From Chrysogorgia sp. JL179-B06 (Eukaryota > Cnidaria > Anthozoa > Scleralcyonacea > Chrysogorgiidae): DNA of 64,000 bases. The first letter of the stretch is position 1; each line of letters opens with the position of its first letter. The position numbers were made by a program, and so were the translations under genes. The notes under the pieces are model-generated. The model did not search any database and was not told the origin of the DNA. It saw only the letters and a program-made list of their open reading frames with translations. This document shows positions 14,249 to 59,504 of this stretch, in pieces. The stretch spans positions 1,122,001 to 1,186,000 of the forward strand of contig JAYKKM010000250.1 of assembly GCA_035772405.1 (NCBI GenBank), in the 5' to 3' direction.

Positions 14249-14390
14249 CCAATCGCTCAAGTCAATGAGCACAAGAGAAACCAGACAACAACTACAAAAA
14301 CAACAACAGGTAGCACAGTTGAAATGGCTGCCTTAAAAAACATTCAAAAATATGTGTTAGATATCAAAGAAATGGTTCAAACAAAATGTC
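14249..14390 (+). CDS. BEN-domain-like gene exon running into a palindrome
   Basis: After the acceptor ATTTTTAG the phase-0 frame reads PIAQVNEHKRNQ, a Thr/Lys run, then MAALKNIQKYVLDIKEMVQT. No donor in the correct phase is found before the frame enters the long palindrome at 14379. The 3' end of this exon therefore cannot be placed; the palindrome may have replaced the donor. The helical segment suggests a continuation of the coiled coil of the preceding exon. Confidence 0.5.
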
Positions 14391-14844
14391 CAATTTACAA
14401 CAAGTCAATAAATTTCTGTTTCCATACACCTACTGTAACATGCTGGTTTACAAAATATTACATATATATATATATATATAGCTGTTTCTGATATCTTACA
14501 TTTTCTGGACATTCTTGTGGTTTCCTCGAGCTTTCAGGGGTGGAGTAAGCGCTCGACAACAGAGGAGGCTCATATTTTCTTTTCATTGAATTGACTGTTT
14601 TTTGAAGCTCATTAGCTTCAAAAAACAGTCAATTCAATGAAAAGAAAATATGAGCCTCCTCTGTTGTCGAGCGCTTACTCCACCCCTGAAAGCTCGAGGA
14701 AACCACAAGAATGTCCAGAAAATGTAAGATATCAGAAACAGCTATATATATATATATATATGTAATATTTTGTAAACCAGCATGTTACAGTAGGTGTATG
14801 GAAACAGAAATTTATTGACTTGTTGTAAATTGGACATTTTGTTT
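14379..14844. repeat. Near-perfect 466-bp palindrome
   Basis: Positions pair to a constant sum of 29223: arms 14379-14609 and 14614-14844 (231 bp each), with a 4-base loop CATT. Arms match base for base at all points I checked, including an AT-dinucleotide run of matching length in both arms (around 14462 and 14743). The terminal bases do not continue pairing. No coding content or target duplication was found. It begins inside the end of a BEN-gene exon. It could be a foldback insertion, a recent inverted duplication or an assembly/amplification artefact. Confidence 0.9.
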
Positions 14845-15366
14845 AAAACTACTAAAAATGTTGAATATTATTAGGACTAATATGGCAGTAAAGGAATTTG
14901 AATGTACTAAGACTGTTTATGAGCATTTGAGCAGCTGAAGTCGTAATTATCGTTAACAATCAAGTAGGAAGAATTCATGATTTTAATCAACAAATGTTCT
15001 TTCAATGTTTTTCTTCTGTCTTAAAATTTCAATGTTTTTCTTCTGTCTTTCTTCTGTCTTTTATAAAATACAAAACATTGTTCCAGTGTAACATTGGACT
15101 CCTGTTCACACTAAATTTCTCGTTTTCCCAAACTTCCACTTCTGTTTCTTACCCGACGTGTATGAAATAGTTTGATCAATATATAATGTAATTAAAAGCA
15201 TTTTCGTTTTCTAAATTGTAACGATTACAGATGTTTTAGTATTTTATTCTGGCTAACGTCTGACGGTTTTATTTGGGAATGGAGTGGTCACTGGTCTATA
15301 AAGGGTTAAAATAGTTGTTGAGAGATTTTTTAATTATATGACACTTCTTTCTTACTTTCCATGCAG

Positions 15367-25160: not shown

Positions 25161-27995
25161 GGGTTATTCAATTGAGACAATTCGTTCATGATGATGACTA
25201 CGACATCTTTGGAATTTCGGAATCCGGGCTAAACTCTACAGTTAAAAACGCTGAAGTTGAAATTGAGGGCTACAAAATCTCAAGGCTGGACAGACAGAAA
25301 AAGGTGGGAAGGTGTGTGTGTATATACACGTACATCACTGAAAACCAAAGTAATAAAGGAGCTAACCGGAACATCAGCGTCAGGCTTTCACCAGCTGTGG
25401 TTAAAAGTTCAACATAAAAAATTGAGATCTATTATGTTGTGCGTTACTTATAGACCACCCGATTGTCCAGTTACATGTTTCGTGGATGATTTCATGGACA
25501 ATTATACACAGGCGCTCACTTTGAGAAAGGAAGTGTTTGTGGTGGGCGATCTAAACTGTAATCTGTTGAAGAGTTTACCAGCCTAAATCTGACACAGCTC
25601 GTGACTTCGCCAACAAGGGTCACACCCCATTCTTCGTCATTGATTGACGTCATCATGATGTCAAATACCACCTTAGTTGTCGAAAGTGGAGTGGTCGAAA
25701 CTCACATCAGCGACCATTATTTGACTTATTCTTTGCTCAATCTCAAGCTGCCTAAGCCGTCACCTAATTACGTGATAGTTTTGTGATAGACCTAGCACAG
25801 GTCCTGTGGTTGGAAAACGCTCTGATTGATGATGTGAGTGAGAAAGTCGATCACTTCAACACTAACTTCCTGCAAGTCCTGAACAGACATGCGCCAATCA
25901 AAACAGTTAAGATTAGACATCGCCATTGTCCATTCGTTGACAAAGATATAAAAGATATCATGGTCAACAGAGATCAGTTACTCAAGATCGCCAAGCAAAC
26001 TCGTACGCTTGAAGACTGGAGGAATTATCGTACGTCACGTGAGAATGTTAAGATCCAGTTATGGGATGCTGAAAGAGAGCACGTGCAGATAGAATTACAG
26101 CATTGCAAGAAGAACAGCTCCATGTGGAAAGTAATTAAAAGTTGCATTCCCCGCAAGGAAATCTCTCAACCAGTGTACTCGAGGGATCTTTAGGAAATAA
26201 CAGAAGAATTCAACGCATTCTTCGTCTCCGTTGGAAATAGAGCATCAGAGACGTCTTCGTCCTTGGCTGCTGAATATAATCTGCCGACGCCATCGACTCC
26301 CACTGTAGCACAAGTAATCCTGGAGTCCGACAAGTTTCAATTCCATGCTGTATCTTGTGAAGAGATTCGAAAGACTGATGTCCTTTCCATCAAACAAAGC
26401 TCCTGGGTACGACAAGATATCCATGTCTGTAATCAAGGATGCTTTGCCATGTATTCTCTTCACTCTTACGGACATGGTGAACCGGTCGTTAATGTCGTCC
26501 TTGTTTCCGACTGCCTGGAAGACATCTGAAGTCATTCCGTTATTGAAAGACGGAGACCACAAAGTGGCGAACAATAACCGTCTCGTTGCTTCCCGTTGCA
26601 TCAAAGATATGCGAGCGCATAGCCTTAAATCAGTATACTTCATATATGAAGAAAAACAAGCGTCTTACTGAGCATCAAAGCGGGAATAGACAATCACATT
26701 CAACAGAGACGCTGAACATCATGATGTTGGATAAGATTCTGGAAGTTATGGACTCTATAAAGCTTATGGTTGTGGTTCTCTTAGACTTGTCTAAGGCTTT
26801 CGACAGTATTGACCATCGTCGGCTGCTTGTTAAATTACAAGCGCTGGGAGTCTCTAGAACGGCGTTGGAATGGTTTAGGAGTTATCTCTCCGAGCGCAAG
26901 CAGTACGTTCGAATCGGCTGTGAAGTCTCAAGCACTACACGAATGTCAGCACATGGAGTTCCACAGGGCTCCATTTTGGGTCCTGCCTTATTTAATGCCT
27001 ATATTAACGATTTACCCGCAGTCCCAGAAGCTGGCTTCTTAGAGTCTTACGTTGATGATTCGAAGTTGTATTTGTCATTCCCAGTCAATGATGCTGTCGC
27101 CCTACAGATTACCGACGATTTGAAGAGGATTGTCGCATGGTGTTGCCACAATAGCCTGTTGATAAATCCTGATAAGACCAAGTTGTTACTATTAGGGACA
27201 CGCCAGATGCTGCAGAGGGTTCCTACAGGATTTCTTGTAACTCTATTGGGGAAAGAGTTGTTGGCTGTTCCTTCAGTCAGAGATCTTGGGATACAAGTGG
27301 ACGCGACATTAAGTTATGATGAACACATCACAAACACGGTTTCTGCATGTATAGCTAGTTTAAGTCAGATCAGTAGAGTGAAGTACGTTTTTGACACTAG
27401 GACTTTGCTGAATATCATTAACGCTTTGGTGTTTAGCAAATTGTACTATTGCTCCTCAGTCTGGTCAAACACATCCAAGAAGAATGTTCGTAAGCTCCAA
27501 AATGTGCAAAATTTCGCAGCAAGAATTGTAAGCGGCACTAGAAAATTTGATCATGTAACACCAGTCCTTAAGGAGCTAAATTGACTGCCTGTCAGCCAGA
27601 TGATGCTGTTCAGATATGGCGTTTTAGCTTTTAAATGCGTGAAGGGGCTAAGCCCAAGCTATCTTTCTGATAGATTTACAACACATTCTATGGTTCATAC
27701 AAGAAATACACGAAATAAGGATAAGTTGAATATTCCCGCATATAAGTCAACTGCTGGTCAGCGGTCTTTTTTGTATCGGGCCGTATCGTTGTGGAATTCA
27801 TTGCCATGCGATCTTACCGACAGCACAAGCATTGTCATTTTCAAGAAAGATTTTAGGAATTATTTGTTAGAGCAATTTTTATGCACTTAGGTTTTTTAGT
27901 ATTAGACTTGATATAATAAGCTAGTTAACTCGATTTTGTAAATTAGCGTGAAAAGCCCAGTGGGAACGTTAATAAATGTTATTATTATTATTACT
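25161..27995 (+). mobile_element. CR1-like LINE with EEP nuclease and RT, decayed
   Basis: The 5' part is an endonuclease/exonuclease/phosphatase domain in three frames: YDIFGISESGLNS, CVTYRPPDCPV, VVGDLNCNLL, SLIDVIM and ISDHYLTYS. A linker follows, then the RT. The 3' end is AATAAATG plus (TTA)n at 27975-27992, a typical LINE tail. Frame changes occur at about 25320, 25595, 25790, 26190 and 26570, so the element is inactive. It abuts the ACGT-rich repeat on its 5' side. Confidence 0.85.
26586..27890 (+). pseudogene. LINE reverse transcriptase, YVDD motif
   Basis: The longest frame (26586-27584, 332 aa) begins at RT motif 2/3: VASKICERIALNQY, HQSGNRQSHSTET, VVVLLDLSKAFDSIDHRRLL, HGVPQGSILGPALFNAYIND and FLESYVDDSKLYL. 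D in LDLSKAFD and DD in YVDD are the catalytic aspartates. The next frame (27600-27890) has LFRYGVLAFKCVKGLSPSYL and ends NIPAYKSTAGQRSFLYRAVS, WNSLP, the CR1/Rex-type tail. A stop at 27584 and one frame difference separate the two. The order is collinear with a full-length RT. Confidence 0.85.
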
Positions 27996-29190: not shown

Positions 29191-29272
29191 TATAGCAAAG
29201 TGAAAAGGTGGTGAACTGTTAAGATTTTTAGCAACATATAGGCTGACTTTCGAGCGGTGCCCTTCGTCAGAG
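29191..29272 (-). repeat. Hammerhead-core-like hairpin repeat, copy C
   Basis: The minus strand reads CTGACGAAGGGC, ACC, GCTCGAAAGTCAG. The CUGANGA box (CUGACGA), a stem GGGC/GCUC and GAAA are present, but one base of the following ACGTC is missing relative to copy A. It is flanked on plus by TATAGCAAAGTGAAAAGG. This is the most complete of the three short copies, but catalytic competence is unlikely. Confidence 0.5.
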
Positions 29273-29279
29273 TAAGACC

Positions 29280-30604: not shown

Positions 30605-30775
30605 GCGGTTATGCACCTATCAATGTTAATCCCGCGGGGGGCGGGAAAAGGCAGGGTTTTGACAAACTATGATGTCCCGTGGGTGTGGATTTTGATATCG
30701 CAAGATTGCCCCAGGGTGCGGATATTTGAAATATTTTATCCCCTCCCCTGGGAAATTTGATTAACTCGTGCCCAG
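30605..30775. repeat. G/C-run dispersed repeat, copy 1
   Basis: This begins GCACCTATCAATGTTAATCC, then a G-rich run, GGGTGTGGATTTTGAT, GCCCCAGGGTGCGG and CCCCTCCCCTGGG. An inverted copy lies at about 41090-41270, which in reverse complement begins GCACCTATCAATGTTCATCC and shares the AGTCCACACCCAACAGG block. It overlaps the region just upstream of the coiled-coil gene start and may supply promoter sequence. Confidence 0.65.
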
Positions 30776-30827
30776 TCTTCCCATGTGCTGCACGCCGCTT
30801 GCTCAAATTAAAGCTGAATTCTTGAAA

Positions 30828-30852
30828 GATGGCTTCCTCCGAAGAAACAAAG
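30828..30852 (+). CDS. Coiled-coil gene, putative first exon
   Basis: The ATG in an AAGATGGCTTCC context encodes MASSEETK followed by a GTATGT donor. It is the best upstream start for exons at 35113, 35959 and 36175. The link across a 4.3-kb intron is inferred from orientation and a compatible phase, not proven. Confidence 0.4.
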
Positions 30853-31822
30853 GTATGTTTATAGCATCCTTATTAATAAATTGTATTATCTCATGCATCA
30901 AGTTGCATTTTGTTGAAAAAATCATTTTAACTTCCCATTGTTTCTGACAATTCAATTTATTTATGTGACATCTTGAAATAAAGCTTAGAAAACATTATTC
31001 AAAACTTGTGTATTCTACTATATTTAAATTAAAATATGCACTACCTCTTGTTTTGGCATTTTATTTCAAAAAGCTGCACACTTTTGTGCAATTCCCAGAT
31101 AAGTTATTATGCATCTCGCCGAACTGTGGTAACACATTAAAAATTTGTATCGTGTTCACGCCCACACCCATATTTATAAGCTTTTTAGTTGAATCACTTA
31201 AATGACTATAACTATGCATGTTAATACTACAGTTACGGTCACGTCACTACGGCGTGCGTTGTTTTCGAAACTTTGCTACCTCTTACTTGGTGCAAAGTCA
31301 ATCAAATATAGTATTAAATTGATCATAAAGTTTGGGTGATTCTGAGGATATATTTTTTGTGTTGTCTATCGCTGGAATTATTCGTTTATTTTGGATTCCA
31401 TGTCTTGGTCGTCAGCTTGTTGTTGTGCTCGCTACAAATCGGGAATTTTGGTTTGTGGTCATTATCTCGTCTACCGTTTAATGGATTTGTTTTAAACTAT
31501 CTCTGTGAACTTCGCACTTTGTTCCTGTTGACCTGTCAAGTTTTGGTGTCTTTTGGTCATACAGAATTCAAACTACACTCATTTTATGATTTTGACCGTT
31601 GGAAATTCATTGTCATTTAATCTTATATTATGTCAAGCGCCGCCCGCCATAGTAACTACCTTATGAATTTGTGATCGTTTGTCAGTCGTCTGCAGTCTAT
31701 TATGAATATCCATCCTAGAATTGTGTCATCTATATAATCTTCTGTTTCCTGGTGCAATTTTGGAATTTATTTCGTGATTATCATTTTTATCGCTGTTTTG
31801 AATTATTCACGGTCGTCGTAAT

Positions 31823-34196
31823 TTGAACTTTGCCCTTGGTCACGGAAACCTGAGACTTTTCAACGTTTCAACACCAGCTGCGGGATTTCCCCTGATAATT
31901 ATTATCAAGTCAACTATGGCATTTGTTGCACTATCTTTGTCGCCGCGTAACTTACTGGTTATTATGCACATATTCATATACCTATCAAGTTTTACCCGAG
32001 TCTTGTCCCAATCCACACCCGCGGATCTCAACTGTGAAATTTTGTACGTGTCACAATTGCTGTCTAATCCAAATATGAACGAATATTCTCATTATCATAT
32101 TTCCCGTCGCTCAACCTCCGCCAAGCCTCTCTCCTCAGATAGGAAATTAATCCATGGACTTCATATTGCCATGAACTTCTCCATTTCTATCATTCTAATA
32201 TCTCTATCTAATGACATTTCAACCAATCCTGGTCCTGACTGCAGCATTTCAACATCACCACCTATTGTGCGAGGACTAATCAACCCCAGAGTCCGTTCTT
32301 CATTTAATGTTTTGTATCAGAACGTCAGAAGTCTGAAGGCAAACTATCTTAACTCTAGAACTAATTGCGTCGTGAATAAGCTATCCTGTCTACATGACGT
32401 TGTTTATGGCAACAGTATAGATGTGATTGCTTTGGTGGAGACTTGGCTCTCTAGTCATGTGCGTGATGATGAAATCTTACCTGTTGGGTACAAGCTAATT
32501 CGTAGAGATCGTCAAACAGGTAAACGGGGAGGTGGTGTTCTGCTTGCCGTGAGAGATACAGTCAAAACTGAACCTTCTGATTTCGTTTCCGACTCATTAG
32601 AACTTGCATCTGTTGTCATTAACTCCTCGTCCAGTAAAGTACTTGTTGCTGTCTGTTACCGTCCACCTGACTCCACCATTGATTTTATTCATGAACTATC
32701 CCGATTTTTAAAATTTGTTCAAGATTCACAATTCAGAGATGTCGTTCTAATTGGTGATTTTAACTACCCTAACATCCAATGGTCTAATGGTTCAGGTTTC
32801 TCTACCTTAAGTTCAGAATCTAGTTTCATTGACATTGTCACTGAGTTTAGTTACCTACAATTGATCAACTCGCCTACCCGCGGTAACAATCTTATCGACC
32901 TGGTTTTAACTACAAACGAACATTTGACCAACAACTTCGAAGTTACTGATGACGAATCCATCTCTCTACACTCTGATCACAAAGCAATATTTTTCAACTT
33001 AAAACTCCATCAACAACCTAAACAATCTTCCGAACGTATAGTATATGATTACTCTAAGGGAGATTTCGTTGGCCTCATTAACTGTCTCAGGATCACTCCA
33101 CTAGTAGATATAGTCCTCAACGAAAGTCACGACGTAAATCTTGCCTGGTCAAAGTGGAAAAACGCTTTCCTTGCCGCTGTAGACTATTTCATCCCTAAAA
33201 CAAAGCTCAAGCGTTCATTTACCCCTACGTACATCACCAAGGACTTACTCCACGCCATCAAAATGAAAGAGTCACTAAGGAGAAAGGCTAAGGCTAAGAA
33301 CTCACCTCAACTTTGGGAGAAATTCCGCAGAACTCGGCAACACGTCAAGTGTTGGATGAATTCCAAGAAGAGAGAATATCTCTCTGGACTGTCCCAAAAT
33401 GTGTTCAATGATCCTAAATCATTTTGGAGATTCTTTAAGAGTAAATCCTCAAAATCCTCTATCCCTGACGTGATTAAATTGAATGGTCAGAAACTTTTTT
33501 CTGCGGAGGAAAAAGCGGATGGCTTTAGCCAATATTTTGCGTCAGTCTTTATCTCCGACTCCGACACAAGTTCATCACCTCTTATCTCTCCTTCTAACTC
33601 AACATCTAACTCTCTTGACTCATTAACTATATCTGAATCCGACGTTCAGTCATTGTTGTTCAATTTGTCACCCTCTAAGGCTACTGGTCCTGACGGTATA
33701 CCAGCTTATATTCTAAAGCGATGTTCTGAAGTAATCGCCCCGTCTTTGACTGCTCTCTTTGAGCTATCTCTTCAGCAGGGTGTTTTCCCTTCTGAATGGA
33801 AATCTGCAAATGTCGTGCCCATACCCAAGAAAGGCGACGCTCATGAGGCCACAAACTACAGACCAGTTTCATTATTATCCCAAGTCTCCAAAGTTCTAGA
33901 ACGTCTAATTTTCAATCAGGTTTATTCTTTTGTTAAGAACTCTTTGCATGACCTTCAACACGGCTTTCGTTGCCATAGGTCATGTGTTACTCAACTTTTG
34001 AATGTGCTTCACGACCTTGGTCATACTCTTGCTTGATTCTGGTAAGGAAATTGACATGGTTTATCTTGACTTTGCTAAAGCGTTTGACTCTGTGTCCCAT
34101 AGCAAACTCTTGTTCAAACTTAAATCGTTAATAAATAAAAAAATTAATGACTTTCCTTGTTTAAAATTAACAGCCAATCACAAGCCAGCGAGTTAA
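31823..34196 (+). pseudogene. CR1/L2-like LINE ORF2 with 2A-like motif, RT truncated
   Basis: The 737-residue frame has an N-terminal region with hydrophobic stretches and NDISTNPGP, an EEP endonuclease (VLYQNVRSLKAN, IALVETWLSS, AVCYRPPDS, VLIGDFNYPNIQW, NLIDLVLTT, LHSDHKAIF) and the first RT blocks (ATGPDGIPAYILK, FPSEWKSANVVPIPKKGD, NYRPVSLLSQVSKVLERLI, HGFRCHRSC). It stops at 34036. Another frame continues VYLDFAKAFDSVSHSKLLFK, then is lost near 34130. The YADD half is missing. EEP residues E, D/N in GDFN and SDH are intact. The LINE sits in intron 1 of the coiled-coil gene. Confidence 0.88.
32210..32236 (+). other. 2A-like motif NDISTNPGP
   Basis: The consensus for 2A ribosome-skipping peptides ends D-(V/I)-E-x-N-P-G-P. 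Here the peptide is NDISTNPGP: Asp-Ile, Ser instead of Glu, then the invariant NPGP. It follows a hydrophobic segment (MNFSISIILISLS), as in other non-LTR elements that carry 2A-like or signal-like N-termini. Skipping would separate the leader from the endonuclease. Loss of the Glu makes efficiency uncertain. Confidence 0.5.
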
Positions 34197-34299
34197 ATTT
34201 AAAGCTTATAAATGTGGGGATGGTCGTCAACGTTTGTGGGTGTGAACGCCATACACATTTTTAATGCGTTACCACAGTTCGGTGTGATCTGTAATAATA

Positions 34300-35112
34300 T
34301 GAGTTAATGTTTGAAAACTCATATCCCACAAGACTGTACATCCCACATAACCCACGAGTCAACTGTGTTCAAAAAGAATCGGTAGTCCTGTTTAGTTGTA
34401 GATAATAGTATCGGAGGACTAATTAAACAGCAGGGAAGGACTGCCAGCCAGTATTAAAATTGTATGATAGCCCCAGTAGCATTTCTATTTCATAGTAAAT
34501 GCAAACTGCAGCAAGGACAGTAAGTTGGCAATAATGTGTCGTTGTAACTTTGTATAAATTAATTAAGCAGCTATAATTTAATATATGTAGTGTATGCAAT
34601 CTGACAAGGCCTGTTTATTGACATCCATGAAACTAAGGAAAAATCAGTATAAATGCCGGGTTGGTGTGTATATTATATTGTCTTTATAATGGAGTGCAAA
34701 AGGTGAACGTCTTGTTGTTACTGTACTTTTTACTTATTTTACCCCATACTATGACACTAGGTCATATGTTTTGTGGACACTTGACCTCCAATGTTTCTTG
34801 AGGGAAAGCGAAGGGAAACATTGGTGGTCTCTGGTCCAAAAAGCACACCTGAAGGTCCCAGTAAATAACTGTTTTATTCTATACCAAGTGTCAAAAAACG
34901 AAATAAAGAAATACATGTATGTCAAATAACTGACAGAAGTGAGTTTATGTTGCATAATTTGACAGTCTTTGAATGGTTTTATTATTCACCAGCCCATAAC
35001 ATCATTCACCACTCAAATTTGTTGTCAAATTTCATTGCTTTCATGTGTTAAAGTCTGTTACAGTCTGTTGACACTTTGTACAGTATATAATATAAAATGT
35101 GTTAATTATTTT
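34300..35112. other. Intron-like spacer
   Basis: AT-rich sequence with a hairpin at about 34786-34832, where CCAATGTTTC and GAAACATTGG face each other across GAGGGAAAGCGAAGG. No gene is seen. Confidence 0.4.
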
Positions 35113-35114
35113 AG

Positions 35115-35261
35115 ATACACAGCAAAAAGTTTCATGTCAGCGAGATGATTTAAACCCACAGTCTAAAGAAAATAATGATACAACTGAGACTTCATTAAAA
35201 CAGAAAAAATCTCTTCAGCAGACTCTCAGAGCTGATTTTACTCTCGGACCACCCATTGAGG
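35115..35261 (+). CDS. Coiled-coil gene, exon 2
   Basis: After acceptor TTATTTTAG the frame reads DTQQKVSCQRDDLNPQSKEN, then KQKKSLQQTLRADFTLGPPI and E at a GTATGC donor. It is polar and low in hydrophobic residues. It is in phase with the next exon, which starts GAC (Asp). Confidence 0.55.
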
Positions 35262-35959
35262 TATGCATTCTCTGTAGTTACTGTTAGTTTCTTAGAAACT
35301 TTTGTGACAAAAAGTCTTCATAGGAAATCTTTTTGTCTCACAGGAAATATTTGCCACTTTATAAATATGAACAACAGATAATTATGTTGTTTGTCATAAA
35401 AAGTACAGCATAAAAAGTACATTTATAATTTTTAGTGTGCATTTATACTGCATGGTATATAATATACTTATTAACCTGGCAGTGGCAGGTTTGTAAAATT
35501 CTTTCATTGAGAAAATTTTGAACTTGTTGTTTAAAGGAAATTAGTATTTTTGAATTTTGCTGGCAGGAAGTAAAACAAACTTAGTATGCCTGGATTTATC
35601 TACCATAATATGGAATAACACATAAAAAAAAACCGCGAAAGTGAGTGTTATACGAAGAGAGTGAGTCCAAAAGAAAGAGCCCTGCAGTATATATTTCCTT
35701 TTTTTAGGTTTTTTTTCAATAGCATTGAGCAATTGTGTTATTACTTGTAAATGATAACACAAAGAAATTTCAAGCATATTACCTACAATCGGTCAAGCGC
35801 AGTCAAGAAACATCAAACTGTATTCATTATTACTATTACCATTTTCTTAGTAATTTGTTATTTCATACAAATATGTTGCTTCCACGTTAATTATTTTGCA
35901 GTATTTAGCAGACAAAATATTTAACATTTTGAATTGCATTTCTTTATATATGGTTTAGG

Positions 35960-36093
35960 ACTTACCCCTTGAAGATAATGATATGGCTAGTGCAAAAATA
36001 TACACTGGTTTGCATCTTAAAGCATACGAGATTGCTGTAAATTCTGCTGCTCAGAGTTTGGCTAGAGATGACCCTGTACTGTTGCTTCGTAGA
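35960..36093 (+). CDS. Coiled-coil gene, exon 3
   Basis: After acceptor GGTTTAG the exon reads DLPLEDNDMASAKIYTGLHL, KAYEIAVNSAAQSLARDDPV and LLLRR, ending AGAG at a GTATTT donor. It is joined in frame to exon 4, which begins GTGAGTTATAT (GELYERARNKV). The LLLRRGELYERARxKVxxDGYxFKKGxSRS block is one I recognise from uncharacterised invertebrate proteins; no function is known to me. Confidence 0.6.
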
Positions 36094-36175
36094 GGTATTT
36101 AATATCTATATTTTTAAAGTTTACACTACGTACAGATAGACAATTTATAGCTTTGTTGTACCCTTTTTTGTCTAG

Positions 36176-36855
36176 GTGAGTTATATGAAAGAGCACGAAA
36201 TAAAGTTAAAGAAGATGGATATCAGTTCAAAAAGGGATACTCACGTTCAGGACAGAACGCTGCTTCAAGTAGTTCGAGTGATGATTGTTCAGGTATTAAC
36301 AAGAAAAGGAAAAATATCATGGCTGAAGAACGTCAAAAAGCCATAGAAAGCAACAAGCAATTGTTGAAATGCACAGAGGATCAAATTCGTGTGAAGGAAG
36401 TAAGAATAATTAAGTTAAAAAACAGCAATGAGTTTAAGAAGTGTGATGACGTGAGCAGTGAATTGAAAGCATCAATCAAAGAGAAGGCTGTCATTGAAAG
36501 TCATTTAGCAGCATTAGAAAGAAAGGAAGCAAAATCAAAGTGGTATATTAAAGAAAAGAAGAGATCCAAAACCGACGCCAGCAAGTCAATAAAACTCCCA
36601 TCGAGCAGTGCAAGCGGTAAAAACCCAAAGAAAATAACCGATCTCTTTAACCAAAAGAGTGACAAAGGTCACACAAGTCCAGAGTCTGGTGGATCAGCTC
36701 AATCAGCAGAAACAGTGATATTAGAAGATGACGACCTGGATATCCCAAAACCGATCTCACAACAGCGTCACTCAAGTGAACCCGAGCAGAATGATGACGA
36801 CCTCGATTGCCAACGACCTCGATTGCCAACTGTTAGAGATCTCACAACAAATTAA
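36176..36855 (+). pseudogene. Coiled-coil gene, last exon with 16-bp duplication
   Basis: The exon begins GELYERARNKVKEDGYQFKK. It continues as a long charged coiled coil (MAEERQKAIESNKQLLKCTE, RIIKLKNSNEFKKCDDVSSE, HLAALERKEAKSKWYI), then a Ser/Lys tail with PKKITDLFNQKS (PIP-box-like Q..I..FF only loosely) and an acidic segment. Near the end GACCTCGATTGCCAAC is present twice in tandem (36799-36830). This shifts the frame and gives the stop at 36855. With only one copy the frame would continue through ISQQINPPAGSPEDGQHIKE to a stop near 36943. A recent slippage-type duplication is therefore likely. Confidence 0.65.
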
Positions 36856-36943
36856 TCCTCCTGCAGGTAGTCCTGAAGATGGGCAGCATATCAAAGAGAA
36901 AAACCACGATAATTTTCAGAATACCCCTCTTGGGTTGGAGTAG

Positions 36944-37070
36944 AACCAAGAGGGGAGGACATTGATATTTATATCGAACAAAACAAAACGAAATCTTTAT
37001 CGAAACATTGTCAACTTCGGCATGACGTTTTTGTTTCAAAGGTTTATCTTTAAAAACGTACAAAAATGTT
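36944..37070 (+). other. Intergenic or 5' part of the PHD gene
   Basis: The stretch contains a plus frame starting GEDIDIYIEQNKTKSLSKHC and ending at a stop near 37050. It may be the 5' part of the downstream gene, separated by an indel. Spacing between the two genes is below 150 bp if so. Confidence 0.35.
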
Positions 37071-40000
37071 ATGTCGCATTTTTGCCAGAAAGAACACAGT
37101 CAGCCTTGTAGTGGTTGTCAAGGGATGATAAGAGTTGCGAGTACAGTTATTTCAGATGGTTTTATAAAACTGAAATCAGCATTCGAATTGGTCAGTCCAA
37201 ATGTTTTGCGATATAAGGCCTCAGAGGCGAGACGAAAACTTTTGCGGATGCCTTTAGCATGTGTGGGCGTGGGCAATCGGAGTAAGGGGAATTATTGTTT
37301 GTATATTGTTGAGAAACAAGAATCAGTTAATTACATAGTATTTCAAACACTATTGGAAAAGGCAACTGAAAAGGCAAGCGTTCCAACAAGAGGTTTTTCA
37401 AAAAAAGAATTGAAAGATATTTTATACCTTGCCGAATCGGAATCTGAGAAGGAACTGCTAAAATATGTTACAGTCTGGCATCTCAAATACTAAAGCAAAA
37501 GAACTTTATGGAATATGTGACGTTCAAAACCGTGTAGGCAAATTAAATGCTGCTGTTAAAGAAGCAAAGGCAGTAAGAGAATCGATTGAAAAAATAGCCA
37601 AGCTGAAGGATAAAGCTCTTCTTTCGTCGTTTGGATTTGAAGTCCATAATGAGAGTGAGAGTGATCTGAGTCAAAGCGAGTCTGAAGATGAAACGCCTAG
37701 TGAAGAAGATGAAACGCTTTATAGTGAAGAAGATCAGACAAGCGAAATGCATCGTCCTCTTGTATCTTCAAGTTTGGTTAGGTATGATGCAGTCTCAGTT
37801 GTTGCTATCGATAGCAATGATGGTACAGTTGTTCCAGAGTTACAAACGGTGAATAATGACGATAGTGGTAATCACGAAGTTGAAGCTGGGGCAGACGATT
37901 TGTTTCAGGATCCCCTCAAGCTTTGTGACATACTCAGATCTTGTTCTTTTAACTGGTTTCAATTTGTGTTTAGCTTACAGTCAAAGTTTGAACATTTAAA
38001 CGAAAATTACCTCAGCCGACTGTTAAATGAATTTGTTGATAGGATGCCATCGTTAAATATAGACGAGGAAGACATGTCGACGGTTATTCAATCTCGAAGT
38101 GCGTTTTTGCTTTTGGACGAAGTGCCCACAGCCTTTAACGAGCATGAAGAATCTATAGTGTCGGAGTCAGATAGTAGCGACATGGAGATTTGGAACCATG
38201 GGATAAGTAATGTACTTGGAGAAAATGGCAGAAAAATGATTGCAAAGCGCCGAGCTGCAATTCACCGAAAAGCAATAAGAGATGCCAAGAAAAAGATTAT
38301 GGAAAGACGACTTTTGAAAAGGAAACGCAGCAAAAAGGTTTCACGCATTTTATCTCAAGTGCCCAATATTGGAAAAGAAATCGAGAACTTTGTGCGGGGC
38401 AGGGGCTGATGCCTGGCGCCGTACTGGCGTAATCACATTTGACGGAAATAAGAAAGTAAAGAAAAAGCCAACTTTTAAGCGTGTAAAAGAATATCTCGAA
38501 GAAAAATTTCAGTTGAAAATTTCTTATGGGACAGTGGTTCAACTGTGTATTGCTAGAAACAAGCGGCGAAATTCTGCTGCCAGGTACAAAGGTATTGCAA
38601 AGGTTTGCCATAAAAGAGCTCGGAAGGGATTTAATCTAAAATTCAATCCTGACGAACACTGGAGCGCTGCATTTTATGGCGCTTTAGGTGACATGCAGTT
38701 TCGTGATGGTGGAAAGGTTTTAAATTTGAGCAGGGACGATCAGGCGGGTTTCCGTTTGGATACCACAGCAACTCACAGACAACATGGAAGTTTGTGTGTC
38801 CGAGGTTCTGAATCTCTAACAACAAGAACAGACTATGTCAATGGGTATCCCTCCACTCTTCAAGTAACCTCATACAACTTTCCAGAAACAGCAACCACGG
38901 CAGAATTATGCGCAGGTGTGGTCAAGGCTCGCTCTTTGCATGACAAAAATGCAGCACAACATTTAGCAGATATAGAAATGTTATCGACAAAGGAAGTGCT
39001 ACGACCTGCTTTTTACAATACGCAAACTGGTAAATACAAAGAAGTTGAATTCATCAGAGTGGATGGAGGTGCTGATGAAGGCCCCGCGCACTGTGAAACA
39101 TGGTACTGGTGGACGGTTCATCACCTAAAAACAGAAACAGCAGCCACCATGGTAACATCGAGGAACAGTGGAGCCAGTTACAGAAATCGAGTTGAATTGC
39201 AAAATGGATGTTTAGCGCTCGCACATGCTAATCTTTTTATCCCATCCACTCTCCACGGTAGTTGCCTCTCTGCTTCAGGGAAAGTAGATCAAATTAAACT
39301 GCAGGAAAATTTATCTTCCGCCATCGACGTCTACTTAAACCGTGTTGATGGAGCGCCCTGTGCTTCTACCGAAATTCACGTCTTTCGCAGTGCTGACAGT
39401 CAAGAGTATCAGAAAGAAAACACGTTGGTCAAAGCATATCTAAAAGGAACAAAGGAGGTAAAAGAAAAACTGAAGAAAGAGCACCCAGGAATGTACAAAA
39501 GAATAACTGAGATTATGGATTTGCAAGAACGTCATTTGGTTAAAGAGGTTCCAACCAAATATATATTCTATTTGCGATGTTGCTACAAAACTGGATGCAT
39601 ACATCCTCGTTGTAAGCAAGGTCCACCCAAAGACGAACTGACATGGTATCCTGGCGGCCCGCCGCTTTCTTTTGTACCACTTCCCTCTCCAGATTCCGAC
39701 AGACCATACGGGCAGGATTCATGTCTTCAGTGTAAGTCGGCATGTTCTGGACACTACCTAAAGCCTGAACCTTTGAAACAGGCTTATGCCAAGGGTAGCT
39801 ACAAGTGTCTAAAACCACCATCTGAGATACTACTGTCCACGATGAAGAAATTAAACTACAAAATGCCGGACGAAGAAAAGATTATTGAACTCTCTAAAGA
39901 AGTGCTTCTTTCACCGCAAGAAACCGCAATGTGGTGCGATCACCTTCGGAAGGTTCATGATAATCGCGTTAATGGAGCCAAAAAGAGAGCCCAAAATGCT

Positions 40001-40291
40001 GCTGCCAAGAAAGCAAACAAGGAGGCTGGGACCCAAGTTACCGCGAGAAGTAATCGTACAGCTCACACAGAAGCAGATGGGCAAATGGGAAACAATGAGA
40101 AAGATATTTGTCTTGAATGTGGCAAAGAAGAACCCTCTGGAACACTGGATGACAGTGGTGATGTGACATGGGTATGCTGCGATGGTTGCAACCATTGGTG
40201 TCATGCAATTTGCTCTGGTATTTCTGAAACTGACATTTCACAATTGGAAAATTGGTTATGTCTTGCTTGCCATGAAAATTGGAACTTATAG
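37071..40291 (+). pseudogene. Transposase-like gene with C-terminal PHD finger, two frameshifts
   Basis: Three collinear frames (37071-37493, 37465-38409, 38369-40291) overlap at their ends, where residues such as KELLKYV/ISNTKAKELYG and ENFVR/GAGADAWRRTGVITFDG join sensibly. This indicates one ancestral ORF of over 1000 residues with two indels. Part 1 is Cys-containing (CQKEHSQPCSGC). Part 2 is acidic. Part 3 (640 aa) carries AWRRTGVITFDG, SYGTVVQLCIARNKRR, FRLDTTATHR, EFIRVDGGADEGPAH, YRNRVELQNGCLALAHANLF, a Cys-rich zone (CCYKTGCIHPRC, CLQCKSACSGHY) and a C-terminal PHD finger. D(LDTTATH), D(VDGGADEGP) and E(RVELQNG) could be a DDE triad; this is inference. I recognise the family as repeated and uncharacterised in invertebrates. 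Confidence 0.75.
40106..40288 (+). other. PHD finger at C-terminus
   Basis: Residues 580-640 of the last frame read ICLECGKEEP, WVCCDGCNHWCHAICSGI and NWLCLAC. This is the Cys4-His-Cys3 PHD arrangement (C-x2-C, C-x2-C, H-x2-C, C-x2-C) with W before the last pair. PHD fingers read histone H3 tails, so a transposase-like protein with one might target chromatin. Confidence 0.85.
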
Positions 40292-40398
40292 CGTGTGTAT
40301 ATGCAACTGATCGAAAACGAATTAGCAAACTAGCAATACTTAATCTGATATGGGGGAGTGCCAAAAAAACAGTCACTAACGTCTCGAAAAGTTAATTT

Positions 40399-40631
40399 AC
40401 GCCTGTATTCTAAAAGCTCAGTTATACTCAATAAGTGGCCTCTCTCACACTCAATCAGTGCAACTCAATTTTTAATAAGTCTCCACTCACCTCCAATTGA
40501 ATAGCTGGAGGGTGAGTGTAGTCTCATACTTAGTGCAGTGAGTGGAGACTTAATGAGTGTTGAGTAGCACTTTAATATTGAGTGGGAGAGGCCATTTAAT
40601 GAGTGTGAGTGAGCTTTTAGAATACAGGCGT
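40399..40631. mobile_element. MITE, 233 bp, GAGTG-rich arms
   Basis: The ends are ACGCCTGTATTCTAAAAGCT and its reverse complement AGCTTTTAGAATACAGGCGT. Arms extend inward with ACTCA/TGAGT words (TCTCTCACACTCAAT, ATTGAGTGGGAGAGG) and meet near 40500 at CCTCCAATTG. The element is noncoding. No target duplication is obvious. Confidence 0.7.
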
Positions 40632-41089
40632 CAATCTGTGTTCATCCAATCATCCTGTCTCCATCTTTGTTTACTATGGTAATCTATTGTTTTCCCCTCG
40701 TAGTATATATAAGCTGTTAAGTAAGAGTGTTGTTTTGTTTCTTCCTCGCACCACGTTAAGCATTGTTTTTTGCCACCACACGGATTATACGGAGACATTT
40801 GAACTTTGTTGTGTTATGATGGGTTTAACTGTTTTTAGCAGATAAAGTTTAATATTTTGTTTTGAAAAATTTTAGTACAACTTTCTTGATTGTCATGTGT
40901 ATTTAAGCTGCAATGCGACCTCTTCTCTTTTGTCAATAGAATCTTGCGCATTAACAGATTAATATAGCCCGAATGATACTGAGTAGCCAGCTACAACAAC
41001 AAAAGCCATTTATGCATTCTAGAGAGCTACAATTGATCAACTTTCCAGCAAAAACGTTTTGCATACTGGCCTTTATGATATCTATCAAT
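40632..41089. other. Spacer downstream of PHD gene
   Basis: Contains a TATA-like TATATATAAGC at 40704 followed by a GTTAAG tract, but no gene can be tied to it. Otherwise AT-rich with nothing recognisable. Confidence 0.3.
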
Positions 41090-41270
41090 AAATACTTCGC
41101 CTTCAACAACAGCCGGGATTTTGACATCTGTGATTTTCCCCAGGGCAGGGAATGTTGGTAGTTTTGACAAATGTTGTTGTCCCCTGTTGGGTGTGGACTT
41201 TGACTTTTCCCCCCGAAAAATGTCAATTGCCCGCCCCCTCCCCCCTCGGGATGAACATTGATAGGTGCAT
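41090..41270. repeat. G/C-run dispersed repeat, copy 2 (inverted)
   Basis: In reverse complement it begins GCACCTATCAATGTTCATCC, then a G-rich run, and continues to GGCGGGCAATTGACATTTTT, AGTCCACACCCAACAGGGG and CTGCCCTGGGG. It matches the repeat at 30605-30775 in the opposite orientation. Confidence 0.65.
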
Positions 41271-41399
41271 TAGGTTACGCGAGGTTGAACCGCGGATGAC
41301 CCGATAACCGCGGTTTCTGTTAGGTTATTTCTAGGCAGTACTGTATTCTTGCATAAATTAGCATATCTTGAATTTTACAAGATGGCAGACAACTGACAG

Positions 41400-42663: not shown

Positions 42664-44940
42664 TTAAAATCCATATTGAAGTGTATTAAAACTATCTACA
42701 ATAACGCGTTTGTTGTAAACTACCCTATAATCTTTACTTTGTTGCTTAGTAATCACTTGCTTAGTGTTCGTATGTCTCGTAATTTTAAAAGGAATACCTA
42801 TAGAAACTTTAAATGGATTTACTATATCACACACGGCATTAACATACACCATGTCACACATAACATTAAAATTCAATTTCTCTAAAGTCTTACAATTTAA
42901 AGTAATTCCTCTTATTTTGCAACACGTTTTACCACTACTCAGTTCGTACGCATAATTTTTCGGACCCCCAGATACGAACGTTGTAATGTAGTCTCCATCA
43001 AGTTCATCGATGAGTTCTCCAAGGTAGACACCTGTCTCGGGTCTGACCCATCTGGCTTGCTCATGATTAACACAGAATCCGTATCGTAATACAACACTCG
43101 TTCTTCCAACTCCTCCAAAACACTGTACAACTTGAGATGGGCATGTGCGGTCGTGAAAGCTGCAATAGCCACGTTAGTTCTCGAGATGCTCTCCACGACG
43201 TCGTCGCTAACAAATGATGCATCGGTAACTTCAATTTCATTTGAGGTTAACATGTCAAAGTATTCTTCTGGGTTGGAAACCAGCTTTACCTTGCAAGAAT
43301 TAATATAAAAACATGTGGAATATGAATAATTTTGTAAACATACGGAATATAAATAATTTTGTTCCCTCTTTTCAGCCGTTTTAACATAAAACGAATTCAA
43401 CATGAGCTTCGGCAATGCACGTAAACCAGGGTTCTTCTCAATCTTGCTCTGATCCAGACGAATGCCCTCTTTTCGGAAGAAGCAGCAGCTTCTTCTCCTC
43501 AGTGTCACACCCATCTGGAAAACCACTAGATTACTGTTTAATCCTTAAAAATGTGTCAATGTAGTCAGTAAAACGTTCATCACTGGTTGGGGAAAATGCC
43601 AAACCTTGTGGATGTTTAATAAACGATAACCCTTTAACGCTTTCTGCAGTACCCTGAAAGGCGCGTTCTTGGTCGGTGTGATTGCATAACTTTTGTTGAA
43701 TATTATCTGTGCAAGTCTGGCACAACGAAAACATGAGCTTTCTATGAGCTGGTGGTAGAATGGTACATTTCACTATACCGTAGTATTGTGAAATGTCTCG
43801 AAAGTTCTCTGTAACGATCTCCAGATGGCCAACGGGATAGGTGCAATACTTATTGGTGTCTCTAGAATAGCACATCGTACAAGGCCGCAATTATGACTTA
43901 GTTCGTTCGCACGACGAACGCACAAATCGATCGTTTTTCGCCCCCGATTGCTTTATGCCAATCTAAACATTCTTGGCTTTTATAAAGAAGCGGTCACAAT
44001 CTTCGCAAAACACCCAGCCGGTAATGGGACAGTTTTGGGCATAACACAGTCGATCTTATCGTAACCTTTCTTGTACACGTGGCAGTACTTCTTGCGAGCG
44101 AGGAACGCTGGCATGCTTGAAATCACACAGTGAATATCGTGGGCGTAGAGGTAAATATATCAGAACATTCTTGGCTTTTGAAGAAGCGGTCACAATCTTC
44201 GCAAAACACCCAGCTGGTAATGGGACAGTTTTGCACATAACACAGTCGATCTTATCGTAACCTTTCTTGTACATATGGCAGTACTTCTTGCGAGCGAGGA
44301 ACGCTGGCATGCTTGAAATCACATAGTGAATATCGTGGGCGTAGAGGTAAATATGTTTGGATGCTTCAGGACCAGAATAAATTAGTGAATTTAAGTGTTC
44401 CTTTGAAACAATGTTTATTTGATAGTCGGCCAAATACGTTTGGAATTTCTTGACTTCTTCGATACCGCACTGACCTAATGGCACGTTGGCTTTTTCGTGT
44501 AGTTCGTGAGCAAGATTGGCTCGTGCAAGACATAAATTATCTTTGTTTTGAATCTGGACGATAGCTCTTTTGTTAGTTAAGTATTTCTCTAGATTGGCGA
44601 TAGTTCGCTTTTTTCCCGTTCGGCATCTCAACATGGATAATGTTAACAGTAATCGAATCATCTAGCATAAAAGTATCGTTTGACAGAATGATTCTTTCAG
44701 CGGTCAATCTGTCGTGAGGCATAAACGGTAATGAAATTGCGTATTCTGAGGCGAATGCATAATGAATCGAACTTGATCATGCATAACAACGCCGTCAGTA
44801 ACACGATCTAACAAACTATCAAACACTTGGTGTAGAAGCCTTAGGACATCAGGTAAACTCTGCACTTGTAAATAATGGAGTTGAACTCGGTAATCAAGGC
44901 CCGTAGTCTTAAACTTCTTCACCCTTAACAGTAAATAACG
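42664..44940 (-). pseudogene. Polinton/Maverick-type DNA polymerase B, broken
   Basis: Collinear minus blocks include, near the N-terminus, LLHQVFDSLLDRVTDGV, EKYLTNKRAIVQIQNKDNLC and GIEEVKKFQTYLADYQINIV. A mid block has YPVGHLEIVTENFRDISQYY and IVKCTILPPAHRK. The catalytic motif is YYDTDSV (43082-43102), followed by a shifted frame with YLGELIDELDG and SGGPKNYAY. These are the protein-primed PolB features of Polinton-type elements. At least five frame changes and an internal duplication (43966-44354) make it non-functional. Described only; no restored protein is given. Confidence 0.8.
43966..44354. repeat. ~195-bp tandem duplication within PolB
   Basis: Copy 1 starts at 43966 and copy 2 at 44164 (offset 198 bp). 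Both begin AACATTCTTGGCTTTT, include GTCACAATCTTCGCAAAAC and end GTAGAGGTAAATAT. There are only a few differences (for example CCGGTAATGG versus CTGGTAATGG). The duplication covers the Cys/His-rich linker of the polymerase gene. Confidence 0.9.
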
Positions 44941-45558: not shown

Positions 45559-46068
45559 TTGGTTATCAACCGTAAAAAGTGTGAACTAGGACGTTCCGAG
45601 CTTTCATTCTTAGGTCACCGTATTAGTGCACAAGGCATCTCCCTGCTTCCTGCCCGTGTCCAAGCTGTAACCAACTTTCCTCAACCGGCTGACAAAACGA
45701 AGCTCCGTGAGTTTCTTGGAATGGTCAATTTTTATCACCACTTCATTCCTCACTGTGCAGCCAAACTCCATCCACTCCATCGGCTGTTAAGCTCGACCAA
45801 ATATACCTGGTCTACTGAGTGCCAGCAGGCCTTTGAATTTTGCAAGCTCGCCTTGGCTACTGCAACGCTGCTGGTTCATCCACAGTGCGACGCCCCAACC
45901 AGTATCATGTCCGATGCATCTGACCAAGCTGTAGGAGCTGTCCTAGAACAGTTAATCGACCACGAGTGGCGCCCGATTGCTTTCTTTTTGCATAAACTCC
46001 AACCTGCAGAAATTCGGTGCAGTGCATTCGACCGTGAACTATTGGGTGTTTACCACCTCTTACACTGA
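45559..46068 (+). pseudogene. Gypsy RT connection / RNase H fragment
   Basis: The frame starts in the RT thumb (VINRKKCELGRSELSFLGHR) and reaches the RNase H-like core with DASDQAVGAVLEQ (first catalytic Asp) and AFDRELLGVYHLL. It stops at 46068. The YXDD block lies upstream in another frame (near 45500, reading FVFTYIRDYL), where the DD has become RD, so the catalytic motif itself is altered. Confidence 0.8.
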
Positions 46069-46249
46069 AATCGAATTCAAGGCAATTGCTCAAGCTCAAA
46101 CCGACGACCATGAAACCAAGTGCCTGAAGACCGGTACTACGAATTTAAAGCTCGTAGATATTCCACTTGATGACGCTGATTAGCCTGACACTTCTCTACG
46201 ACATATCCAAGGGCAACGCTCGACCCATGGTTCCTGAATAATTTTTAAT

Positions 46250-46440
46250 TTGATCCACGAACTTGCTCATCCAGGTGCTAGATCCACTTGCAATCTCATT
46301 TGGGCACGCTTTGTATTGAATGGTCCGAACCGTGATGTCCGCCGGTGGACACGTACCTGCATGCCTTGCCAACATTCCAAGATCCAGAGAAATACAACGG
46401 CCCCACTCCACAAGTTCGAAGGCGATTATACCTTGTTTCT
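46250..46440 (+). pseudogene. Gypsy integrase HHCC zinc-binding domain
   Basis: The frame reads LIHELAHPGARSTCNLIWAR, FVLNGPNRDVRRWTRTCMPC and QHSKIQRNT. This is the H-x3-H...C-x2-C integrase N-terminal domain (H in HELAHPG, C in CMPC). It runs directly into the duplicated segment at 46401. Confidence 0.8.
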
Positions 46441-46691
46441 TGACCGACTTCGAGACACGATGCACAAACACCACGGAAAGCGTACATCTTATGTACCCCA
46501 CTCCACAAGTTCGAAGGCGATTATACCTTGTTTCTTGACCGACTTCGAGACACGATGCACAAACACCACGGAAAGCGTACATCTTATGTCGGTACATAAG
46601 ATGTACGCTTTCCATGGTGTTTGTGCATCGTGTCTCAAAGTCGGTCAAGAAACAAGGTATGATCGCCTTCGAACTTGTGGAGTGGGGCCGT
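46401..46691. repeat. Direct + inverted triplication of ~95 bp
   Basis: Copy 1 (46401-46495) and copy 2 (46496-46590) are tandem and near identical, starting CCCCACTCCACAAGTTCGAA. Copy 3 (46594-46691) is their reverse complement across a 4-base loop (CGGT at 46590-46593), with about three mismatches in total. Copy 3 also contains the GGCCGT that flanks copy 1 outside the tandem unit, so it derives from copy 1. The structure lies inside the integrase region of the gypsy element. Confidence 0.92.
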
Positions 46692-46748
46692 GGCATCCGG
46701 TGATGCCTTACAGCATGCTACACATGTCTTCGTCGTTCGCACGATGCA

Positions 46749-47066
46749 GTGAAGGCACAGCTCCAACGATCTTACGACGGACCCTTTCTGGTGATTAAAC
46801 GAAACGAAAAATTATTCACCATCAATAAGAATGGCAGGTATTACACGGTGTCCATCGGCCGCCTCAAACCTGCATTCATCGATCAGACACGGCAGCAAGC
46901 GCCACCTCATAAGGCAATCCCACCTCCTGTGCCAGACACACCTTCCCTGCAAGTCCCACCACCTGTGCCTGTGATCATTCCGACACCATCGCTGACAACG
47001 CGTTTTGGTCGTGTGGTCAACTTACCAGTCCGTTTCCGCACTGGGGGGAAATACTGTAGCGAGTAA
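46749..47066 (+). pseudogene. Gypsy integrase C-terminal tail
   Basis: The frame carries LQRSYDGPFLVIKRNEKLFT, YYTVSIGRLKPAFID, a Pro-rich spacer and RFGRVVNLPVRF. The pattern YxGPF.V..R.....(V/I)....VS..RLKPA...(S/F)GR.V..P.RF is the integrase C-terminal tail of gypsy pol proteins. It ends just before the purine tract and LTR. Confidence 0.8.
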
Positions 47067-59222: not shown

Positions 59223-59504
59223 TTACGCCTCATTTTGATCCCCCGGCGGCTACGGCTAACTTTTCTATGCGTGAAATTCGTTGGCACACCCTCCAGGAGG
59301 CTAGCATTCAGGCTCGGACTGGCTATTGTGCCATCAAGAACAATGGCTAGCCGTGTTAGAACAATTTCTAACACGGCTAGCCATTGTTCTTGATGGCACA
59401 ATAGCCAGTCCGAGCCTGAATGTTAGCCTCCTGGAGGGTGTGCCAACGAATTTCACGCATAGAAAAGTTAGCCGTAGCCGCCGGGGGATCAAAATGAGGC
59501 GTAA
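59223..59504. repeat. 282-bp near-perfect palindrome
   Basis: Positions pair to a constant sum of 118727: arms 59223-59360 and 59367-59504, loop of 6 bases (ACAATT). Arms match with only a few differences (CTAGCATTCAG against CTGAATGTTAG, plus a short indel-rich zone in the left arm near 59190-59220, just outside). The right arm is the coding sequence of the exon at 59377-59526, so the left arm is an inverted copy of that exon. No target duplication was found. Confidence 0.85.

Follow-up and report, generated by a model that had tools for sequence, protein, structure and literature searches.

An initial annotation, made from the sequence alone, singled out positions 30828..40291 of a 64,000-nucleotide stretch of the Chrysogorgia sp. 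JL179-B06 genome (contig JAYKKM010000250.1, positions 1,122,001 to 1,186,000 of the forward strand; hereafter, the window) as a mobile or domesticated system of two genes. Our analysis indicates, with a probability of about 0.88, that positions 30612–41269 of the window form a single DNA transposon that includes both genes, namely a dead copy of an autonomous element of the cut-and-paste type, with terminal inverted repeats (TIRs) starting TGCAC, a 3-bp target site duplication of the form TWA, and two genes. The interval first annotated held both genes and fell short of the ends of this unit on either side. The autonomous type encodes an accessory protein with an NCD2 domain and a coiled coil, joined in some families by a CIDE-N piece, and a transposase of ~1050–1130 codons. 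In the transposase, a helical region at the N-terminus precedes a DDE RNase-H core, which is followed by a Cys-rich zone, a segment resembling a homeodomain, and, at the C-terminus, a PHD finger. The properties by which DDE/D transposons are generally recognized were found: a predicted RNase-H core with an acidic triad, TIRs with a target site duplication, and dispersed copies with different flanks.

Copies, termini and target site

The genome assembly (781 Mb, 522 contigs) was searched with the transposase protein, and at least 75 matching stretches were found (69 of 458 candidates were scored). Merging these by eye, with seven second pieces dropped, left 68 places. Three loci, C281, C485, and C249 (the last in two pieces), are sister copies of the window element, with a protein match of 95–99%. 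The aligned bases of the four copies are 99.3–99.6% identical, which implies a recent amplification. The DNA of the sisters aligns with the window from 30609/30611 to 41270/41277, and their flanks differ from those of the window. When matches longer than 60 bp to window positions 28–44 kb were listed, the sole match beyond the element limits was a short dispersed repeat near C249, aligned with window 29191–29278.

The left TIR (30612..30645, + strand; 5'-TGCACCTATCAATGTTAATCCC...) begins where the three sister copies start, and the right TIR (41236..41269, − strand) lies where they end. Immediately outside stand two identical copies of TTA, at 30609..30611 and 41270..41272. At the limits of the window copy and its sisters the inverted repeats start TGCACCTATCAATGTT. 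The repeat flanking the window copy extends over 35 nt with 91% identity, and its score of 26 exceeded those of zone pairs drawn at random from the window (≤23; up to 200 pairs); it was then confirmed because the sister copies share these ends. TTA is found on both sides of the window copy and C281, and TAA on both sides of C485 and C249. To delimit more distant copies, nine diverged loci (a set without C66) were scanned, and a script took as the copy end the TGCAC closest to where the repeat stopped. Six of the nine had TGCAC termini, repeats of 41–58 nt, a TWA duplication, and a length of 6.0–7.9 kb; no ends were found in the other three (C42, C472, and C275). Altogether, all ten delimited copies, six of them from diverged families, carry inverted repeats of 34–58 nt with a 5'-TGCAC start and a TWA target duplication, which reads TTA in five and TAA in five. 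No empty site was found within the retrieved DNA. Inverted repeats around the transposase gene alone (36.7–37.06 versus 40.3–41.4 kb) scored ≤10, below the random zones, so that the coiled-coil gene could not lie outside the element. The 3' non-coding part of the element holds an imperfect, MITE-like (miniature inverted-repeat transposable element) palindrome with 54-nt arms (40395..40635), which is present in the three sisters.

The copy in the window is dead. Relative to its three sisters, it shows small losses that alter the reading frame of the transposase and a short duplication close to the end of the accessory gene. In addition, its intron 1 carries a truncated non-LTR (non-long-terminal-repeat) retrotransposon of the LINE (long interspersed nuclear element) type, recognized by Pfam matches to an endonuclease and the start of a reverse transcriptase (31208..34145, + strand) and absent from the three sisters. 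This insertion largely explains the length of the element in the window, 10.66 kb, compared with 6.0–8.6 kb for the other nine copies whose ends were delimited. On either side of the LINE lie inverted repeats of 45–63 nt (31104–31198 and 34187–34297); the sisters keep the pair without the LINE and have ~0.6 kb of other sequence nearby. Elsewhere, the transposase frame is open over 1133 codons in C485, and frames exceeding 1040 codons occur in five further loci. The suggestion that the system is domesticated finds no support, given the number of genomic matches, the near-identity of the sisters, and the decay of the window copy. At one further place (G000:C66:844623-880606), four minus-strand transposase copies are spaced ~11.5 kb apart, three of them with equal score, which suggests tandem duplication of a stretch containing a copy.

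The transposase gene

The decayed transposase gene occupies 37035..40291 on the + strand, as delineated by tblastn with its relatives and by the losses relative to the sisters. Most relatives are 900–1100 amino acids long, many as single frames. The annotated second gene of more than 1000 residues is not intact in the window, where the small losses leave it in three frames (37035–37475, 37474–38409, and 38393–40291). A 640-amino-acid open reading frame (ORF; 38369–40291) aligns with the C-terminal part of the relatives, and the residue numbers below refer to it.

Residues 90–300 (38636..39268, + strand) are predicted to fold as an RNase-H-like DDE core, and they are conserved. The structure models show the RNase-H order of elements with middling structural scores, the best matches being Mos1, IstA, and retroviral integrases; the fold that the initial annotation had proposed to look for was therefore recovered on predicted structures. 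Four acidic residues are invariant in 89/89 sequences: D123 and D124 (38735–38740), on the first strand of the core, D232 (39062–39064), and E276 (39194–39196). The triad first named began with the aspartate of an LDTT motif, D131. Its second and third members stood, while D131 is kept in 87/89 sequences and D123/D124 are better candidates for the first position. Judging from the modelled fold, the second gene is a transposase with a DDE RNase-H core.

Downstream of the core, residues ~480–535 (39806..39973, + strand) make up a putative homeodomain-like helical segment, suggested by homeodomain chains in the structural search and by PF00046, which matches 8/36 relatives with E-values of 1 or below (1.4e-5 at best; P0049 below the cut-off). 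The C-terminal PHD finger of the initial annotation was borne out (40109..40270, + strand): PF00628 matches the window protein with an E-value of 1.4e-4, just short of the cut-off, and 28/36 relatives at E up to 1, with a best value of 3e-9. The eight zinc-ligand columns are kept in 69–80 of 76–81 sequences, and the tryptophans W601 and W610 in 79/80 and 80/81, respectively. Such tryptophans are aromatic-cage residues by which PHD fingers bind histone H3 trimethylated at lysine 4 (H3K4me3). By its ligand and cage positions, the finger would be of the H3K4me3-reading type.

Profile searches recovered little else. Pfam detected the PHD finger alone, and no core model, in the 640-amino-acid part. 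No transposase model was among the Pfam matches, as seen in the full lists for the window and five relatives and in 25 of the 47 families for 36 members. No helicase or nuclease domain was found in the proteins scanned, which did not include every ORF of the element. NCBIfam gave chance-like matches only, and a BFVD fold search returned nothing at E 0.001. Relatives were not found in viral contigs, prokaryote genomes, or phages.

The accessory gene and its pairing with the transposase

The coiled-coil gene can be resolved into four exons on the + strand that would encode 325 amino acids, with its stop at 36855, in agreement with the spliced first gene of a head-to-tail, plus-strand pair originally described. 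Putative exon 1 (30829..30852) is based on splice reading only. Exon 2 (35123..35260) was placed by splice reading, and its protein is matched in the three sisters. Exon 3 (35959..36094), supported by splice reading, a profile match, and sister matches, contains the start of the NCD2 domain, and exon 4 (36176..36855) contains the remainder of this domain and the coiled coil. The match to NCD2 (PF04905, E 1.1e-7, residues 71–122) covers the C-terminal half of the domain. NCD2 was not detected in the other five members of the window accessory-protein alignment, which are mostly exon-4 fragments, and it was found in 4/4 diverged coiled-coil ORFs scanned (C495, C371, C11, and C215; C11 below the cut-off). 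Among four separate upstream pieces scanned, CIDE-N was found in two, C475a (L018/L017) and C371 (L032/L031), while the C475b and C11 pieces gave no domain match. The same half of NCD2 is what the accessory protein has in common with the NAB proteins, which are corepressors; unlike them, it includes a coiled coil and, in some cases, CIDE-N. The NCD2 domains of the element and of animal NAB corepressors may have a common origin. According to passages of one report, CIDE-N genes are enriched, together with transposase domains, in Hydra genomes (PMC7642931). Alignments of the element's two proteins, compared with each other, revealed no relation.

We then asked how regularly the two genes occur together. 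An accessory gene lies directly upstream of the transposase, on the same strand, in 12/13 loci for which 15 kb each was inspected, and was found in 9/10 further copies for which 2.8-kb upstream stretches were used, amounting to 21/23 loci other than the window. The accessory queries used for the ten further copies matched nothing else in the window. The 23 loci are not a random sample, having been chosen for their high rank in the list and for the length of their ORFs; three are the sisters, and C275 and C371 are near-duplicates. No accessory gene was found upstream of the transposase at C66, where one of the four copies was examined, and at C498. In nine diverged loci with an accessory gene, its protein is 22–39% identical to that of the window in the matched stretch. 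In the window, 179 bp separate the first gene, which stops at 36855, from the second, whose match to relatives starts at the codon at 37035; this is somewhat more than the gap of under 150 bp first reported, and in C485 the two open frames slightly overlap. The proposal that the genes are partners in a mobile system, found together within TIRs, is upheld inside this genome by the shared ends of the sisters and by these pairings. Contigs of equal length, which would hint at linkage in other species, were sought by eye among the listed proteins, and none turned up.

The ratio of nonsynonymous to synonymous divergence (dN/dS) of the accessory gene was 0.29–0.36 in three close pairs and 1.39, on very few changes, in a fourth (C215/C345). 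Between families, dN is 0.55–0.84 and dS is saturated. Both linked genes stay protein-coding across families.

Alternative explanations and classification

The alternative that fares best places the element in some other named superfamily for which few public profiles exist, such as Academ, Zator, Novosib, Sola, Zisupton, or a family recorded in Repbase alone. Short duplications also occur in this group (3 bp in Zator and 3–4 bp in AcademX, according to parts of PMC10045372), and Repbase sequences lay outside our comparison. Against such membership, the Pfam matches described above held no transposase model, and the proteins scanned had no helicase or nuclease domain. We consider this explanation an appreciable possibility, well short of probable.

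In a second explanation, the element is defined by the transposase alone, and the coiled-coil gene rides along as a passenger captured from the host. NCD2 and CIDE-N are known from host proteins, the co-divergence of the two proteins appears weak (with partial transposase pieces for two families), and no accessory gene was found at the two loci named above. However, the pairing, order, and strand are kept across families whose accessory proteins have diverged to the extent given, with dN at 0.55–0.84 and dS saturated. A passenger is, on this evidence, improbable.

Slightly less probable still is a diverged lineage of PIF/Harbinger (PHIS). In the sections of PMC4482050 that describe them, these elements have a TWA 3-bp duplication and a two-ORF layout, to which a DDE-type core can be added, and membership is defined by a transposase alignable over the catalytic region. 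The Pfam lists described above contained no match to DDE_Tnp_4, although this model hits the genome in at least 150 places; of 33 of these that were compared, the nearest lies 35.8 kb from a transposase of the element. Aligned by hhalign with eight DDE_Tnp_4 cores of the genome, the transposase alignment gave a probability of 0.1%, and its core alone 0.1–0.7%; as a control, two DDE_Tnp_4 groups compared with each other gave 46% (E 2e-4, 134 columns). The accessory protein carries NCD2, with CIDE-N in some families, and the proteins scanned gave no Myb/SANT match with an E-value of 1 or less. Membership in PIF/Harbinger fails because the transposase core could not be aligned with theirs, despite the common TWA. 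In the structural searches, the best 50 matches of each included no Harbinger-type chain, an absence that is uninformative. By analogy, the element works like PIF/Harbinger in target choice and layout: both have TIRs, a TWA duplication, and a DDE transposase with a second, faster-evolving protein (portions of PMC4482050 and PMC9179366). It is unlike PIF/Harbinger in its TGCAC termini, in a second protein with NCD2 and a coiled coil rather than Myb/SANT, and in its homeodomain-like and PHD parts.

Lastly, a chance adjacency, either of two host genes or of a transposase that has been domesticated and its neighbor, might be invoked since the coiled-coil gene is spliced and ordinary-looking, but this deserves next to no credence: the window copy is one of four that are nearly identical, share their ends, differ in their flanks, and carry duplications, the pairing recurs in 21/23 other loci, the window copy is decayed, and the sisters refute a host-gene reading of it.

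Several further superfamilies were considered and rejected. Kolobok and piggyBac duplicate the 4-bp TTAA, and our element the 3-bp TWA. Kolobok, hAT, P, MuDR, and Dada have a C/DxxH motif between the second D and the E (parts of PMC10045372 and PMC9587614); window residues 232–276 are without a His preceded three residues earlier by C or D. Ginger was set aside on the duplication, 3 bp rather than 4 bp, and on the Pfam lists examined, which contained no integrase model. Some DDE transposases of Ginger1 and Mutator do share a PHD finger with the element: the consulted portion of PMC2836005 lists Ulp1 and PHD for Ginger1-9_HM, and one of its figures aligns the PHD fingers of the two groups. In the same source, Ginger1 differs from our element by a Gypsy-integrase core, 4-bp CCGG/CCGT duplications, and TGTNR termini. 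The RAG1/RAG2-like elements (ProtoRAG) offer another parallel, as two-gene elements whose DDE recombinase works with a PHD finger. RAG2 carries this PHD finger, and RAG-like elements make 5-bp duplications. In our element the PHD finger is instead fused to the transposase, the duplication is 3 bp, and the genes lie head to tail, in contrast to the genes of RAG-like elements, which are reported to be convergent (PMC7204232).

Judged against the superfamilies that could be compared directly, a set without Academ, Zator, Novosib, Sola, Zisupton, and the Repbase entries, the transposon probably represents a new superfamily within a known type of system. No description of it was found among the papers listed in the literature searches (titles and the starts of abstracts); Repbase was outside those searches, which leaves room for a description in a database only.

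Proposed mechanism

In the mechanism that we propose, the transposase would bind the TIRs through its homeodomain-like or N-terminal part, and the accessory protein would possibly bridge or multimerize it. The DDE core would then cut and join the ends into TWA sites, that is, transpose by cut and paste. The PHD finger, to judge from its residues, may bias the element to H3K4me3-marked chromatin; such chromatin-targeted integration, already suggested by the initial annotation, can be read from the protein sequence as a candidate function. A bolder, joint version holds that this would be a superfamily of animal DNA transposons with two conserved genes and without sequence relationship to any named DDE superfamily, that its TWA preference is convergent with Harbinger, that its own H3K4me3 reader steers insertion to active chromatin, and that the NCD2 partner is an essential subunit of the transpososome. 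We would give this combination slightly less than an even chance.

Other features of the window

Two near-perfect palindromes, perhaps foldback elements, lie at 14379–14847 (~469 bp, 99%) and 59223–59504 (~283 bp, 98%). Retroelement remains comprise a reverse transcriptase ORF (26586–27584) and ORFs for RNase-H and an integrase zinc-binding domain (45559–46798). Tandem duplications overlap ORFs at 43966–44354 (196 bp) and 46401–46589 (95 bp).

Distribution and significance

At E 1e-3, the transposase has at least 694 relatives among database proteins. Among the 120 relatives listed, clusters reach 358 members, and two organisms are named: Dendronephthya (P0015), an octocoral by taxonomy, and Paramuricea (P0036), also an octocoral. 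Source names read 'uncharacterized', except that P0036 is named as a chromatin-modification YNG2 protein. With a transposon identity and defined ends, repeat annotation can remove this family from gene counts. Moreover, the fusion of an H3K4me3-type reader to a transposase, together with apparently intact copies and TIRs, makes chromatin-guided insertion testable, and such a test would concern a eukaryotic cut-and-paste element.
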